A stretch of 64,000 nt of DNA from Streptomyces humicola (lineage in GTDB: Bacteria > Actinomycetota > Actinomycetes > Streptomycetales > Streptomycetaceae). Made by a program: the position numbers and the translations under genes. The stretch spans positions 186,001-250,000 of the forward strand of contig NZ_JANFNG010000006.1 in the NCBI RefSeq assembly GCF_024436035.1, read 5' to 3'. Positions within the stretch are counted from its first letter, which is position 1. Every line of letters starts with the position of its first letter. The notes beneath the pieces are model-generated. The model was not told the DNA's origin and did not search any database. It saw only the letters and a list, made by a program, of their open reading frames with translations. Positions 564 to 6,712 of the stretch are shown here, one piece after another.

Positions 564-1220
564 ATGGTTGGTGCAGGCGAGAACTCCGCTAGGCAGGGCG
601 GGCCGCCCGCGGTACGCCAGTTGGCCACGGGCGTTCAGCCCTATTACGCGCAAAACGCGAAATTTCTCGGGCAGCGGTACGGGGGCGTCACCTTCGAGGA
701 GGTGCATGGTGGGGTGTTGGATTTGCTGCCGCCGGCCCCGGCAGTTGTGGTGGACGTCGGGGCCGGTACTGGGCGGGACGCCGCGGCGCTGGCGCGGCGC
801 GGTTATCAGGTGGTCGCGGTCGAGCCGGTGCGTGAGCTACGGGAAGTGGCACAGCGCCTGCACCCGAGCGAGGACGTCGGTTGGGTAGAGGATTGCCTGC
901 CTGAACTGTCCCGGCTGGAGGGGACTTTCCAGCTGGCGCTGTTGTCGGCAGTGTGGATGCACCTGCCGCCGGTCGCACGTGGGCGAGCGATGGAGAGGCT
1001 GGTCACGCTGCTGGCTCCGGCGGGACTGCTGGTGATCTCGCTGCGACGTGGGGCACCGCCGACCGACCGGGTGATGTTCGACGTGCCTGCCGAGGAGGTC
1101 GCGCGTAACGGGGGGCGAGCGGGGCTGCGGTTGGTGCGGCTGGTAGAGGAGGGCGCGGACCGGCTCGGACGTTCCGAGGTATGGTGGCACACCGTTGTGC
1201 TTCGCAAGGGGGATGAGTGA
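564..1220 (+). CDS. Class I SAM-dependent methyltransferase paired with an HNH protein
   Basis: 218 residues with a Rossmann-type methyltransferase core. Motif I is VDVGAGTGRD near residue 63, followed by an acidic strand end (VAVEP) and the post-IV segment LLSAVWMHLPP. There is no NPPY/DPPY signature of DNA N-methyltransferases and no Pro-Cys pair of cytosine-5 enzymes. It therefore looks like a TehB/UbiE-type small-molecule, protein or RNA methyltransferase rather than a restriction-modification enzyme. The GTG of the HNH gene overlaps its stop by four bases (GTGA), so the two are translationally coupled and probably act together. Expression looks leaderless. The substrate is unknown. Confidence 0.8.
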   Translation: MVGAGENSARQGGPPAVRQLATGVQPYYAQNAKFLGQRYGGVTFEEVHGGVLDLLPPAPAVVVDVGAGTGRDAAALARRGYQVVAVEPVRELREVAQRLHPSEDVGWVEDCLPELSRLEGTFQLALLSAVWMHLPPVARGRAMERLVTLLAPAGLLVISLRRGAPPTDRVMFDVPAEEVARNGGRAGLRLVRLVEEGADRLGRSEVWWHTVVLRKGDE

Positions 1221-2230
1221 GCGGGCGGGAGTTCTACTCTCAGGATGCCTCGGCGCGTGCGTCGTGGAGGCTCGCCGTGCTGATGGGGGCCAACTCACGC
1301 ACCTACAAGTTCGCCCTTGGTCAAGCCTTGCTGGAGTTCGGGCGGCTCGGACAGGAGTCGGTCCCGCTTGCCGAGTTGGCTGCCACCTACAGCCTGGGCA
1401 TGGCACGCCATTTGGCCCACAACCCACAAGCGCCGCACGTTGCGGAGTTGGGAGATAAAGACTTCCTCACTGTTGCTGCCAAGGAGAGCGCCGCGACGCT
1501 GGGCACCGGCCGACCCACGGAGAGGCTGGTTGCGGCTGCGGTGCGCTCGATGCCGACGATGGTGATGCAGAAGTTTCACAACCTGCGCGGCGACAGTGCG
1601 GTGCCCCACACCTTCTACGAGTTGGCAGGGTCGGGGCGGCAGGGCGCCGTACGTCTGACCCCCGAATTGCTTCGGTTGGCGCAGTCGGAGCAGGCCCCGA
1701 GCCTTGTTGCCGAGTTGGGCGCGCGCTGGAGCATCGTGGAGAGCTCCTTCGCTGCTGGCGTAGGCCGCAGTCTGATGGAGGAGGGCGTCACCGTCGACTG
1801 GGACACACTAAAGATCACCGACAAGCGCCGCCGCCGCTCGGTGACCGGCATCGTTGAGGCCACGGTTGGTTTCCAACATGGCCGCTGCCTAATCTGTGAC
1901 AACGTCCTGGCCCTGAGCGATGCCATAGCCGTCGACCACGTCTTCCCCTTCTCCCTGATGCATCGCCTCGGCAGCGTCCGCTCCTGGCACGGCCCAGATC
2001 TGGATGCCCTTTGGAACCTCGCCCCTACGCACGCAGCCTGCAACGGAGCCAAAAGCGATCGGCTGCCCACCGAGGCCGAACTCGGCCGTCTGGCCAACCG
2101 CAACGAGGCAATCATGCAGTCGCCCCATCCCCTGCGCCGCACCCTGCAACTCAGCCTGAATGGCGCCTTGTCCGGCATCAACGTGTCCTCGTGGCCAGAG
2201 TTCCTCAGGGCAGTGCAGACGGCTGTGTGA
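1217..2230 (+). CDS. HNH endonuclease-domain protein
   Basis: 337 residues. The first ~195 are helical and match no family I recognise. The C-terminal third holds a zinc-supported HNH fold: C224-x2-C227, then D240-H241 in AVDHVFPFS, then WNLAPTHAACN and a following K (NGAKSDR). The His-Asn-His elements are all present, so nuclease activity is plausible. The GTG start overlaps the methyltransferase stop by four bases. A coupled methyltransferase plus HNH nuclease suggests a modification-linked defence pair, but the methyltransferase is not of DNA type, so target and logic are open. What is seen: the HNH residues and the coupling. What is inferred: a defence role, from neighbouring nuclease genes. 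Confidence 0.8.
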   Translation: MSGREFYSQDASARASWRLAVLMGANSRTYKFALGQALLEFGRLGQESVPLAELAATYSLGMARHLAHNPQAPHVAELGDKDFLTVAAKESAATLGTGRPTERLVAAAVRSMPTMVMQKFHNLRGDSAVPHTFYELAGSGRQGAVRLTPELLRLAQSEQAPSLVAELGARWSIVESSFAAGVGRSLMEEGVTVDWDTLKITDKRRRRSVTGIVEATVGFQHGRCLICDNVLALSDAIAVDHVFPFSLMHRLGSVRSWHGPDLDALWNLAPTHAACNGAKSDRLPTEAELGRLANRNEAIMQSPHPLRRTLQLSLNGALSGINVSSWPEFLRAVQTAV

Positions 2231-2456: not shown

Positions 2457-3578
2457 ATGACCACTAGCGTTGAGGGGATTGACCCCGGCGATGTCCGTAC
2501 GCGCGCGGAGATCCGTGCACTGTTCGGGGGGAGTCCACAGGGCGGGATCTGCCCCTCTGAGGACATGCACAGCGTGAACCTTTACTCGGACCCGGACGTG
2601 GGCGAGCAGGCCGGGTACTACGACGGCTGGCTGGCTGAAGAAGACGAGTTGGACCCGGTCTTTGAGTACACCGGCGCTGGGAAGTCCGGTGACCAGACCT
2701 TCGATGGCGTCGCCGGTTCAGGTAACAGGGCGATACTTCGGCACGCGGAGCAAGGCCGAGTGCTTCGTGTATTCACGCGAGTGGGAAAGCTGCCTGGCAG
2801 CCATACGAAGACGCACCGATACCTTGGGACGTTCACGCTGGACGGGTTGCAGCCGTATGTGTGGCGTAGGGTTCATGGCGAGGACGGCATCGAGCGCGAT
2901 GTTATCGTCTTCCGTCTGCGCCCCGAGGGAGCTGTTCAGCGCACCGCGCAGGACGTGATCCCTCCCGCTGAGGAAACCACGGCGGAGTTCGTGCCGTTTC
3001 AGCCCGTCACTGCGGCGATGTTCCAGTCAGATCCGGCGACAAGCGGCGCGTTGCCGCTCCCCAAGCAGCGCGTTCGTAAGGGGAGTTCCTCGTCCAAGGC
3101 GACTCCCAATGCAGAGACCAGCGGAAAGTTTGTGGCTCCTGAAGCGTTCGGTACAAAACTGAGTCTCCGGGCTTCCACTGCCGCCACCATCGCCGTCCGC
3201 CGCGAGGCGGAGCTAACTCAAGCGTACAAGGCCTACTTGGACTTTGCCGGGCACCAGACTGGTGCCTTCCAAATCAAGGTAAGAGGCCTCACCTCAACGC
3301 TCCGCACCGACCTGTATGACGCAACGGACCACGTGCTCTACGAGGCGAAGGGTTCGACCTCCCGAGAGGATGTGCGGATGGCTCTCGGGCAAATCCTGGA
3401 CTATAGCCGTTACGTCGAGGCGCCGGGGCACCAAGGTGAGCCCAAGCGCGTCATCCTCTTGCCGGCCGCTCCCGCTCCCGATATGTACACCCTGCTCGAC
3501 CGGTATGACGTTGGGGTCGTGTACCGATCTGACGATGGCCGTTTCGTCGGAGACACCGTCCCTAAGGCTAGCCAGTAA
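2457..3578 (+). CDS. SRA-like + PD-(D/E)XK modification-dependent restriction nuclease
   Basis: 373 residues. The first ~160 (ending in VFRLRPEG) resemble the SRA-like domain of ScoMcrA-type type IV enzymes, with the FTRVGK and YLGTFTLDG strands typical of modified-base-binding folds. A linker leads to a C-terminal PD-(D/E)XK nuclease: D285, then E296-A-K298, followed by a helix with Q and Y (GQILDYSRY). The architecture predicts cleavage of DNA carrying modified bases, which would exclude methylated or hypermodified foreign DNA. The start is supported by the -10 box at 2445. It sits alone on the plus strand next to the DUF6602 gene, which faces it. Domain naming is by eye; the SRA assignment is less certain than the nuclease. 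Confidence 0.75.
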   Translation: MTTSVEGIDPGDVRTRAEIRALFGGSPQGGICPSEDMHSVNLYSDPDVGEQAGYYDGWLAEEDELDPVFEYTGAGKSGDQTFDGVAGSGNRAILRHAEQGRVLRVFTRVGKLPGSHTKTHRYLGTFTLDGLQPYVWRRVHGEDGIERDVIVFRLRPEGAVQRTAQDVIPPAEETTAEFVPFQPVTAAMFQSDPATSGALPLPKQRVRKGSSSSKATPNAETSGKFVAPEAFGTKLSLRASTAATIAVRREAELTQAYKAYLDFAGHQTGAFQIKVRGLTSTLRTDLYDATDHVLYEAKGSTSREDVRMALGQILDYSRYVEAPGHQGEPKRVILLPAAPAPDMYTLLDRYDVGVVYRSDDGRFVGDTVPKASQ

Positions 3579-3642
3579 CGGGATCACTTTTCTGTCGGCA
3601 CCTTCGGAGCAAGCGACTGAGAGGTGATTTGCAAATGGTCAC

Positions 3643-4449
3643 CTAGATTGTCCACTTTTTTGTGATGTGCCCCAATGGCGTGGAGCCGGCATAGGGGGTG
3701 AGATCGAGCGGATTCATCCATGCATCGGAGAAATGGATGTTGAGGTGAAGGGCAAACGAGAGAAGGATGTCTTGCTCGGGCACAGTGTCGACTTGCATGA
3801 GTGATGCGCCTGCTACCGGCGATCTGAAGAGGGAGCGATTCCGTGGGTCGCCCCACTGCAGGTGCCCCTTCCCAACGACCCACACGCTGTCCGGCCAATC
3901 GATGGGATTGTGAGTACGACACCAGTCCACGAGATGATTGCCGATAGTTTCCAGCTTAAGACTGTCGAACGCGACGATCATGCCTGATGTCGGAAAATGA
4001 TCGTGCGTCTTACCGTACGCTTTAGTCGAGCGCGGAATCGTTCCGGGGATCGGTCGGTATGAAGTCTTTGGAATCCTCCGCATACGACTGATCTTGTTGC
4101 AGGCGTCCGTGAGCTGTGCCCCATCCAGCTTCGTCTTCACCTCGACTACGCCGTACACGCACTCGTTGGGAATAATCCTAAATCCGTTGAGGCTAGTGAA
4201 CGGCGGCGTCCCACGGTCTATGAGGACAATGTCACATTGCGGTGATACATCACCATTTACAGCGATAAGTTCCGCATTGTGCACCGCCTCCACGTGTGGC
4301 GGCAGATATCCGGACAGAAATTCTTGAATGAGCACCTCGCGCGACGTTCCGGCTTCGCCGTTATGATTAAAGTTCTGCGATTGCTCGAAGTCGGCCCGCA
4401 TCCTCTTTGCCACTGAGCTGAGGATCTTGCCTAGTTTCTCTGTGGTCAT
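3643..4449 (-). CDS. DUF6602-type PD-(D/E)XK-like protein
   Basis: 268 residues. Residues 30-110 carry a nuclease-like core: D73 in CDIVLID, then E103-V-K105 in YGVVEVKTKL, the spacing of a PD-(D/E)XK fold. The N-terminal segment TSREVLIQEFLSGYLP is typical of DUF6602 proteins. No partner domain such as a helicase is fused. It is convergent with the SRA nuclease and lies beside a transposase remnant, in DNA visibly poorer in GC than the chromosome. The ATG at 4449 is preceded by TAAGAT at leaderless spacing and has no ribosome binding site. Family function is not established; a defence nuclease is an inference from fold and context. Confidence 0.7.
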   Translation of the reverse strand: MTTEKLGKILSSVAKRMRADFEQSQNFNHNGEAGTSREVLIQEFLSGYLPPHVEAVHNAELIAVNGDVSPQCDIVLIDRGTPPFTSLNGFRIIPNECVYGVVEVKTKLDGAQLTDACNKISRMRRIPKTSYRPIPGTIPRSTKAYGKTHDHFPTSGMIVAFDSLKLETIGNHLVDWCRTHNPIDWPDSVWVVGKGHLQWGDPRNRSLFRSPVAGASLMQVDTVPEQDILLSFALHLNIHFSDAWMNPLDLTPYAGSTPLGHITKKWTI

Positions 4450-4461: not shown

Positions 4462-4556
4462 GTGGCGCGCGCCGGCGGAGAGAGTTACAGACGGCTTCAC
4501 CCTAAGCGATGTTCCGTAAGTAATCTTGCTGTGCGATGATCTTGGCCGTGGTTGGT

Positions 4557-4925
4557 GTGATCACGGCGTCGGAGCCCTCCTGGATAGGCCCGTTCACTGG
4601 GCTGAGCCCCCGTGCCTTCGGCAAGTTGGTGACCATGCTGCGGCGCGAAGGGGCCCATGCGCCGAAGCGGGGGCGGCCATAGGGGCTGCCGCTGGAGGAC
4701 TGGGTGCTGCTGGTGGCGACGTACCGGCACACCAACCTGACCATGCCGCAACTTGCCCCGTTGTTCGGGGTGTCGAAATCGGCAGCGGACCAGATCATCA
4801 ATCACCTCGGCCCGCTGCTGGCGCTGCAGCCGCGCAAGCGGTTCCGCAAGGACAGCGTGCTCATCGTAGACGGAACCTTGGTTCCCACGCGGGATCACAG
4901 CATTGCCGAGCCGTCGAATTACTAG
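4557..4925 (+). pseudogene. IS5-type transposase, inactivated N-terminal remnant
   Basis: Reading from GTG 4557 gives an N-terminus typical of Streptomyces IS5-group transposases (SWIGPFTGLSPRAFGKLV). An in-frame TAG at 4680-4682 interrupts it right after RGRP. The frame then continues through LPLEDWVLLVATYRHTN, the helix-turn-helix FGVSKSAADQIINHLGP and VLIVDGTLVPTRDHS, and ends at 4925 after SNY, before the catalytic DDE core would be complete. The gene is dead twice over: a nonsense codon and a C-terminal truncation. No matching inverted repeats are visible, so only a scar remains between the DUF6602 and DUF262 genes. It indicates past insertion or recombination in the cargo region. Confidence 0.85.
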
Positions 4926-4942
4926 GTAGTGAGGCGTGAACC

Positions 4943-6712
4943 CTACTGAAACCGTTTCCCTACCTCCAACGTCCTGGCCAGATCAGTTACTTCAACGGTT
5001 TCGTCGCCTTCACGAACGAAGACGCGCCCATCAAGGAGGGATACCTCCTGCTGCTCGGGCACTCGAATTATGATCACGCCCAGACCGTAGTAATCGGCGT
5101 AAGCAATGCTTGACAGAACCGAATTTCGCAATGCTGGACTCAAACCAGATGACCGAATGTCGGCCTTCCACCGTCCGAAGTATCGCTCACTGGACTCTCC
5201 TAGGATTTCGGCCTCGCGACGCACACCAACAACGAAATGCTGTCCGTTCCCCACTCGACGGGGTTCGACTTGATCGAGCGCCTGAATTCTCATCGCATCT
5301 TGCTCCTTGTCGGCGACCCCGATAAGGATGGTGCCAGCTCTGTCTTTGCCATTATTGGCAATTGCGCAAATGGTTTTGAGAATCTTGTCAACTACCGTCG
5401 CATCGACCCTGCGGCTACTGTCGAGGCGGAGAAACCCCTGTTTAAGCTCGTAATGTGGAGCTTCCACCCCTGAGCGCCTAATGATATTGTCGACATCTAG
5501 ACTAGTATGGTCGCCATAGATGTCCTTATGGGTCGCATCAATCAAGTGAGGACGAATAAGGCCCTTGATCGTGTCAACGTTCTTTCGGCGCTCGCTGCGA
5601 GCTGTTGAGGCCTTTCCCGTCTGGATCCTACGGTCGAGGCCCGTGAGTGCCGCCTTAATCCCTGCGTAGTCGGCAACCTTCTTCTTTTCGCCGAACAGCA
5701 ATTCATGGAAGGATACACAGAGTAGGGCGAATACGGCCGGAAAGGGGCTGGTATTACTCCTGGAAAAGAGAATCGATCGGAGCTTTCGGACCTCTTGAGT
5801 CTCACATATTGCTTCGATCTGCTCGAGACAGTACTTGAATTCCGCCTTGAACCGCTCCACTCCGTAACCGTCCAGACACCTGGCCATTCGGTTGTTTTCT
5901 TGGGTTCCAGACTGATAAACTTCATCCAAGGTAACTTTAGATCTTTCGAGTATGGATCCACCAATAATTGAAGCGGCGATGTCGGCAATACACTGCTCAT
6001 CCATGGAGTCTCGCAGATCAGTCGACCGCAAGATCCCCTGGGCTACCCAGAAAACTTCCTCCGCCTGGACATCGTACCCATGCTTGGTCATGGGAAGGTC
6101 GATGCTAATCGATGGCATTTTAGAGAGGTTGAGAACATCACTCGACGCATCCCCTCGAACATCACATGCGAGTTCACGTACGAGAGATGAAAAATCGTCG
6201 CGAACGCCAGCCTGTCGCCGCTCTTGATCGCTCAGCCGATGCCCGTAAGTATTGATGCGCGAGAATACATCGTCAATCTCCTCGTTGGTGGCACCACGCA
6301 TGATTGAAACCGCGAGCGAATAGTCGAGGATCGTGCCGACTTCGCGGGCGGAAAGTTTACTCCCGGGCGTTACGGCGAATGCACTCTCTTCCACCGAGCG
6401 AGTCTTTGCGGTCACGAATTGATCGACGTCAAAGAGCTTTCCGTCAGTTGTTGGAAAGGCCGTCTCGATGAATGAAACCAGGGTGTGGAGTCGCTGCAGG
6501 CCATCAATTACTTCATAGTCCCCGGCCTCCCGCTCAGCCAAAAGAATAGCGGGGATGGGGTACCGCTTAAGGACCGACTCGATGAGTTTCTGCTTCTCCT
6601 CCAAGGTCCACACCAGCTTCCGCTGGTAACGCCTATTAACCCAGAGCTTATTCTCGCTGTACCAGGCGTAGATGGATTGGATCGACTTTGGCTGTGAGTC
6701 GAGTTCTGCCAT
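4943..6712 (-). CDS. DUF262 - AlbA_2 (Schlafen-type) fusion protein
   Basis: 589 residues. The N-terminal half is DUF262 (GmrSD/ParB-like): RRYQRKLVW, the signature VIDGLQRLHTL with D70-G71-x-Q73-R74, and the later SRINTYGHRLSDQE motif. In GmrSD enzymes this domain hydrolyses nucleotides and is paired with a DUF1524 HNH nuclease. Here the C-terminal ~175 residues (from ~415) look instead like AlbA_2/Schlafen: E422-L-K424 in HYELKQGF, then IANNGKD and TILIGVADK. The nuclease module seems to have been replaced by a putative nucleic-acid-binding or RNA-cleaving domain. A 6-kb defence-like neighbourhood and lower GC suggest transfer. The ATG at 6712 is the first in frame; no clear ribosome binding site is seen. 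Confidence 0.8.
   Translation of the reverse strand: MAELDSQPKSIQSIYAWYSENKLWVNRRYQRKLVWTLEEKQKLIESVLKRYPIPAILLAEREAGDYEVIDGLQRLHTLVSFIETAFPTTDGKLFDVDQFVTAKTRSVEESAFAVTPGSKLSAREVGTILDYSLAVSIMRGATNEEIDDVFSRINTYGHRLSDQERRQAGVRDDFSSLVRELACDVRGDASSDVLNLSKMPSISIDLPMTKHGYDVQAEEVFWVAQGILRSTDLRDSMDEQCIADIAASIIGGSILERSKVTLDEVYQSGTQENNRMARCLDGYGVERFKAEFKYCLEQIEAICETQEVRKLRSILFSRSNTSPFPAVFALLCVSFHELLFGEKKKVADYAGIKAALTGLDRRIQTGKASTARSERRKNVDTIKGLIRPHLIDATHKDIYGDHTSLDVDNIIRRSGVEAPHYELKQGFLRLDSSRRVDATVVDKILKTICAIANNGKDRAGTILIGVADKEQDAMRIQALDQVEPRRVGNGQHFVVGVRREAEILGESSERYFGRWKADIRSSGLSPALRNSVLSSIAYADYYGLGVIIIRVPEQQEVSLLDGRVFVREGDETVEVTDLARTLEVGKRFQ

Follow-up and report, generated by a model that had tools for sequence, protein, structure and literature searches.

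The first two genes of the DNA considered here pose a question: what is a methyltransferase of the wrong kind for DNA doing in such close company with an HNH nuclease, and do the two proteins work as a unit? The sequence analysed (called the window below) is a stretch of 64,000 nucleotides from Streptomyces humicola. The features needed for the argument are as follows, with positions numbered from the first nucleotide of the window.

564–1220, plus strand: class I SAM-dependent methyltransferase (P0001), 218 aa, ATG start; from Pfam, 20 homologues and an AF2 model
744–788, plus strand: SAM-binding motif I (VVVDVGAGTGRDAAA) of the methyltransferase; from invariant residues in 20 sequences
1217–1220, plus strand: 4-bp overlap GTGA (GTG start/TGA stop); from the reading frames
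1217–2230, plus strand: HNH nuclease (P0002), 337 aa, GTG start; from HNH residues, an AF2 model and phrog_338
1217–1786, plus strand: N-terminal domain of the nuclease (residues 1–190), winged-helix-like by model; from alignment and the AF2 model
1304–1309, plus strand: invariant Y30-K31 pair at a helix start; from alignment and model
1886–2044, plus strand: HNH active centre C224-x2-C227, D240-H241, N267 and C275-N276; from 39 sequences and Cas9 HNH structures
2457–3578: gene next after the HNH gene, product of 373 aa with a REase-like C-terminus
3643–4449, minus strand: DUF6602/NucC-like PD-(D/E)XK protein
4943–6712, minus strand: fusion of GmrSD_N and Schlafen AlbA_2

The initial annotation had described two genes sharing 4 bp, and re-reading of the sequence returned both of them together with the GTGA, an arrangement implying that the methyltransferase and HNH genes would be translationally coupled. 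Each gene is present as a single copy in the 7.07-Mb host genome. The same 4-bp overlap occurs in 10 of the 21 actinobacterial loci where the nuclease is paired with a methyltransferase, and 4-bp overlaps are also found in two more distant loci (L079 and L070). Pairwise dN/dS is low for the nuclease (about 0.17, pairwise 0.14–0.24) and for the methyltransferase (about 0.24, pairwise about 0.2–0.3), three very close pairs being set apart in both cases, and both genes are therefore under purifying selection.

Family, fold and motif together support assignment of the methyltransferase to the small-molecule/protein type and not to the DNA type, as the initial annotation had proposed. It scores above the curated Pfam gathering scores of Methyltransf_23, _25 and _11, no DNA-methyltransferase family lies above the Pfam cut-off, and the NCBIfam matches are all sub-threshold and mostly to small-molecule enzymes. 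Motif I (DVGAGTGRD, residues 64–72) has D64, G66, G68, G70, R71 and D72 invariant in the 20 homologues. The NPPY, DPPY and Pro-Cys motifs, already reported as missing alongside an intact motif I, are found neither in this protein nor in any of its 20 homologues, the motif-IV region reading LLSAVWMHL. Structural comparison of the AF2 model (pLDDT 86) ranks methyltransferases of small molecules and of peptides first (Z about 20–23), and the nearest solved structures are UbiG/ChlM/DhpI/NodS/NTMT1-type enzymes.

A scan of 84,980 species genomes gave 42 nuclease loci besides the window (43 in total). In 21 of the 43 (the window and 20 others) the gene immediately upstream, in the same orientation, is the methyltransferase, and in 20 of the 43 its place is taken by a MazG-like NTP pyrophosphohydrolase (NTP-PPase) of about 100 aa, which is divergent and upstream in 19 loci and downstream in one (L034); none of the 43 has both. 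This small protein begins MGKLVRDKIPEII and matches the PRA-PH/MazG families of NTP pyrophosphohydrolases, and a Rhodococcus copy is annotated as nucleoside triphosphate pyrophosphohydrolase. Locus L019 runs off its contig; its partner is probably the methyltransferase, since a near-identical genome has it there. L037 has no partner, its genome carrying three partnerless copies of the nuclease. Neighbour families other than the partners recur in at most three loci (larger groups being antisense or alternative frames of the pair), which argues that the pair moves as a unit. With a methyltransferase in so many loci whose flanks are otherwise unrelated, and with purifying selection on both genes, the pairing is more than chance. 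Within a sample of 298 Streptomycetaceae genomes an intact nuclease with an adjoining methyltransferase was found in the window's genome, G1297 and G1191, and in G1214 a contig ends within the nuclease gene, a second contig having the methyltransferase at its own end. Rare adjacency in other genomes had been named at the outset as grounds for giving up the pair; as a methyltransferase stands beside every intact, untruncated nuclease found in Streptomycetaceae, that objection falls. An Aldersonia genome (G005) carries three full-length nuclease copies (L132, L133 and L134), none with an adjoining partner.

Distant full-length relatives of the nuclease (27–47% identity) come from plasmids and from other phyla (Pseudomonadota, Bacillota, Bacteroidota, Verrucomicrobiota and Cyanobacteriota). 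Among these the methyltransferase lies downstream in L052, L063–L066 and L070 (Roseomonas, viral contigs and Bacillota) and upstream in L054 and L079 (Acinetobacter and Verrucomicrobiota). The NTP-PPase lies downstream in Bacillota (L069), and is also found beside more distant HNH proteins in L061 and L072. A HIT hydrolase is encoded downstream in Hymenobacter and Persicobacter (L055 and L058). On cyanobacterial plasmids (L053, L060 and L062) an L5-gp82-like protein (PF25735, phrog_586, a family without stated function) is encoded divergently upstream of the nuclease (about 3404–3876, minus strand) and is a possible fourth partner type. Some distant relatives (L056, L059 and L109) are partnerless.

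A tree of 62 nucleases requires at least five changes of partner family and at least seven changes of arrangement. The actinobacterial clade paired with methyltransferases is nested among nucleases paired with NTP-PPases, and from this position it is most likely that the methyltransferase replaced the NTP-PPase in that clade, the direction being read from an unrooted tree. The partner methyltransferases joined the nuclease on at least two occasions and fall into two well-separated clades (actinobacterial and proteobacterial/Bacillota) with a Verrucomicrobiota outlier. Stand-alone kin of the window methyltransferase are common in Streptomycetaceae and have no neighbours in common, so that the actinobacterial partner appears to have been recruited from a resident methyltransferase family. 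The initial annotation had allowed that the enzyme might group with a housekeeping one: the close stand-alone relatives are there, but no known housekeeping enzyme is among them. The NTP-PPase motif EExxE...ExxD is kept in 23 of 23 partners, the HIT partners keep HxHxH and the methyltransferase partners keep motif I; since these catalytic residues are kept, the partners probably act as enzymes and not as mere binders. The pattern is that of one nuclease family accompanied by exactly one of several unrelated enzymes that are catalytically intact by motif, with partnerless exceptions.

The constant member of the pair lies below the Pfam cut-offs for HNH_4 and HNH. Across 39 homologues there is no variation at C224, C227, H241, N267, C275 and N276 and almost none at D240; of the residues originally picked out, the ‘later H’ (H272) lacks such conservation. 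The conserved residues make up an intact HNH centre, as is asked of the endonuclease domain in Type II restriction–modification. The AF2 model (pLDDT 87, pTM 0.88) has a C-terminal half resembling Cas9-type (Z about 6–7) and Cap5 HNH domains. The phrog_338 profile (HNH endonuclease) covers residues 12–290, the N-terminal domain included (E 6e-16), although this is a phage family without stated mechanism and the phage records searched gave no close homologue of the nuclease.

At the level of sequence the N-terminal domain stays without assignment, as it had been left initially, the approximately 190 residues giving no match in Pfam, PADLOC or PDB. Its conserved residues are R18, G24, N26, Y30-K31-F32, H121, E166, R170-W171 and E175. 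By structure the N-terminal 170 residues resemble the sulfur-binding domains (SBDs) of SprMcrA, Hga and ScoMcrA, as well as Orc/Cdc6 winged helices, at Z 6–8, which is of borderline significance; the best match, at the noise limit, is to the SprMcrA domain 7cc9 (VIA-align Z 8.1, 121 residues, 3.5 Å). Foldseek searches of PDB and viral models gave Cas9-type or short HNH matches only, from which no absence of the N-terminal fold is claimed. Sequence comparison gave no support to homology with the SBD: hmmsearch of PDB found no SBD match, and hhalign of the domain with aligned SBDs (from ScoMcrA, SprMcrA and the Methylibium, E. coli and Klebsiella enzymes) gave a probability of about 0. In ScoMcrA the pocket residues H116-R117 head a helix, R117 being lysine in most homologues (PMC6224610), and in SprMcrA Y31-Q32 do so (PMC7470945); by helix order in the model the Y30-K31 pair may correspond to these.

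Both the window nuclease and the phosphorothioate-dependent Type IV enzymes SprMcrA and ScoMcrA have an N-terminal winged-helix-like domain (in our case by model) followed by HNH, with an aromatic-Lys pair that would head the same helix. Unlike them, the window nuclease shows no sequence or profile similarity to that group and, as far as an insecure positional alignment allows, has no YP/MP-F-W (Tyr-Pro-Phe-Trp) stretch at the place of the sulfur pocket (Y164-P165 in ScoMcrA); the described enzymes also have no coupled partner gene. A search of four host genomes for dndC gave no match. The wH-HNH N6-methyladenine-dependent endonucleases, compared by description, likewise join a winged helix and HNH in one chain and should function with no DNA methyltransferase; they measure 224–283 aa without PUA and 375–496 aa with PUA and reportedly seldom have methyltransferase neighbours (PMC11037411), whereas the window nuclease has 337 aa, an N-terminal domain that seems to be of another kind and, regularly, a partner that is not of DNA type. 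To judge from the model the nuclease perhaps works like a modification-reading nuclease and is at most a candidate member of that group.

By their sequences the HNH gene and the genes at 2457, 3643 and 4943 would make a four-nuclease island, and since these three match nuclease domains the early description of the region as nuclease-rich is borne out. The 2457–3578 product is 33–34% identical to the products of L017:8640–9965 and L020:8652–9977, two Streptomyces loci where the counterpart follows a nuclease of this family at a distance of about 1.6 kb; its N-terminus looks SRA-like by eye. Also by eye, an IS transposase fragment lies between nuclease genes at 4526–4939 on the plus strand, suggesting an insertion in the island. 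Restriction–modification genes adjoin the module in the window, L010, L041 and L054–L056, and a position among restriction genes fits a defence role for the pair. PADLOC searches of flanking genes gave a patchy defence enrichment in the actinobacterial loci, and the control set likewise gave matches, to helicases and to mad2. For the methyltransferase itself mad2 ranks first in PADLOC (3e-15), but this profile (PDLC04134) also matches HsdM, Type I/II methyltransferases and three of 52 control proteins, and this non-specific match is the only sign of a mad1–mad8 set among the window's first five genes. Membership of MADS was rejected for these reasons, and a match to mad2 alone should not be read as MADS. 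The pair has partner families in common with the MazG-like/COG4997-type NTP-PPases and HIT hydrolases of nucleotide-linked conflict systems, and the MazG NTP-PPase is among the predicted, unvalidated defence domains of DefensePredictor (PMC13092281). The pairing of this HNH nuclease with such partners was not found in Pfam, PADLOC or NCBIfam, and the literature searched gave no account of MazG, HIT and methyltransferase proteins that replace each other beside a single family of HNH nucleases.

The reading that we tentatively prefer, at somewhat less than even confidence, is that of a two-gene module in which a mobile defence nuclease is served by an interchangeable partner acting on a small molecule of nucleotide type. 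The constant part would be an HNH DNA endonuclease whose winged-helix-like N-terminal domain probably picks DNA for cutting in a Type IV-like manner, and the variable part a small enzyme (methyltransferase, MazG-like NTP-PPase or HIT hydrolase) whose substrate is most likely a nucleotide or a compound derived from one. Enzymes of unrelated families alternate next to this nuclease, from which we would expect the partners to handle compounds of one kind, removing or converting a common class of ligand. HIT and MazG-like enzymes have nucleotide substrates, and for this reason a nucleotide-type substrate may be proposed for the methyltransferase; that this nuclease is accompanied in other genomes by an NTP-PPase or a HIT enzyme gives the idea indirect support. 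Methyltransferases rarely stand in for hydrolases in nucleotide metabolism, so that a common partner substrate is a guess. The partner could remove a trigger, make an inhibitor or exclude an odd nucleotide from host DNA. It might keep the nuclease quiet in uninfected cells until a phage-altered nucleotide pool frees it, or it might keep unusual nucleotides out of host DNA, with only invading DNA being cut. In either case the role of the module would probably be anti-phage. Against the module reading stand the intact nucleases without any partner in L037, L056, L109, L132 and L133. A more specific scheme, ‘restriction-sanitation’, seems to us rather doubtful: here the nuclease would cut DNA containing an unusual nucleotide and the partner would keep that nucleotide, or a nucleotide signal, from the host pool, giving self-protection without marking of host DNA and leaving the partners interchangeable since the same compound class is handled.

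Should the partner control the nuclease via a small molecule, immunity would rest on two genes and follow a logic other than that of restriction–modification, with self told from non-self by the nucleotide pool and not by DNA marks; the chance that the module has a new self/non-self logic is a real one. Since methyltransferase, NTP-PPase and HIT hydrolase already replace one another in nature, they form a ready comparative set for finding any common substrate, and the widespread unassigned N-terminal domain and the orphan NTP-PPases of the MGKLVRDKIPEII type are given a context.

An enzymatic toxin–antitoxin system, in which a self-toxic nuclease is neutralised by its partner (through protein methylation, or through nucleotidyl removal by HIT or NTP-PPase), is rather unlikely. 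The tight gene overlap, the partner coming first in many loci and its small size would all suit such a system, the exchange of partners resembles antitoxin swapping, and the peptide N-terminal methyltransferases NTMT1/NRMT are among the nearest structures. Three unrelated folds would, however, all need to act on one protein, and the NTP-PPase of L043 is frameshifted. In L022 the methyltransferase has lost its first half, with an IS transposase in its place, and the nuclease frame is intact, and this locus, together with the partnerless nucleases listed above, leads us to disfavour an obligatory antitoxin role as far as gene content can tell.

It is unlikely, too, that the protein is a stand-alone Type IV-like modification-dependent HNH nuclease with house-cleaning neighbours that merely hitch-hike in defence islands and have no common mechanism. 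An SBD or winged helix with HNH is a Type IV architecture (PMC6224610, PMC11037411), full-length nucleases do occur alone, and the abundance of stand-alone methyltransferase kin in Streptomycetaceae would be in keeping with this. The idea is weakened by the actinobacterial set, where in 41 of 43 loci either of two partners, never both, stands at a fixed distance and in a fixed orientation, since hitch-hiking does not predict such mutual exclusion, and by the recurrence of overlap coupling with different partner families.

More improbable still is that the methyltransferase modifies tRNA or other RNA, with the HNH protein acting on RNA or being controlled by its state. A weak PHROG match of the methyltransferase to a phage tRNA methyltransferase, and CmoM and METTL6 among its many structural neighbours, are what speaks for it; against it, matches of this quality extend to hundreds of class I methyltransferases, the HIT and MazG partners are not RNA-modifying, and HNH domains are mostly DNases. 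Classical restriction–modification, with the methyltransferase shielding host DNA from the adjoining HNH nuclease, had been discounted by the initial annotation and is ruled out with near certainty here, given the lack of any amino- or C5-methyltransferase catalytic motif in a protein whose best families are small-molecule methyltransferases and the pairing of the same nuclease elsewhere with enzymes unable to methylate DNA.

The combination of a nuclease with an NTP-PPase may be a wider theme. A second, unrelated-looking HNH-like/MazG-type pair adjoins the module in L043 (7024–8369), L017 (11993–12987) and L020 (12004–12993), overlapping by 4 bp in L043. Still more distant HNH proteins, which match in the HNH part only, were seen beside an NTP-PPase in L072 (1504–2264) and beside a HIT protein in L087 (596–1809). 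Finally, a GIY_YIG_2 nuclease gene adjoins the module in unrelated hosts (L018, L021, L041, L066 and L128), and in L066 it overlaps the methyltransferase gene.
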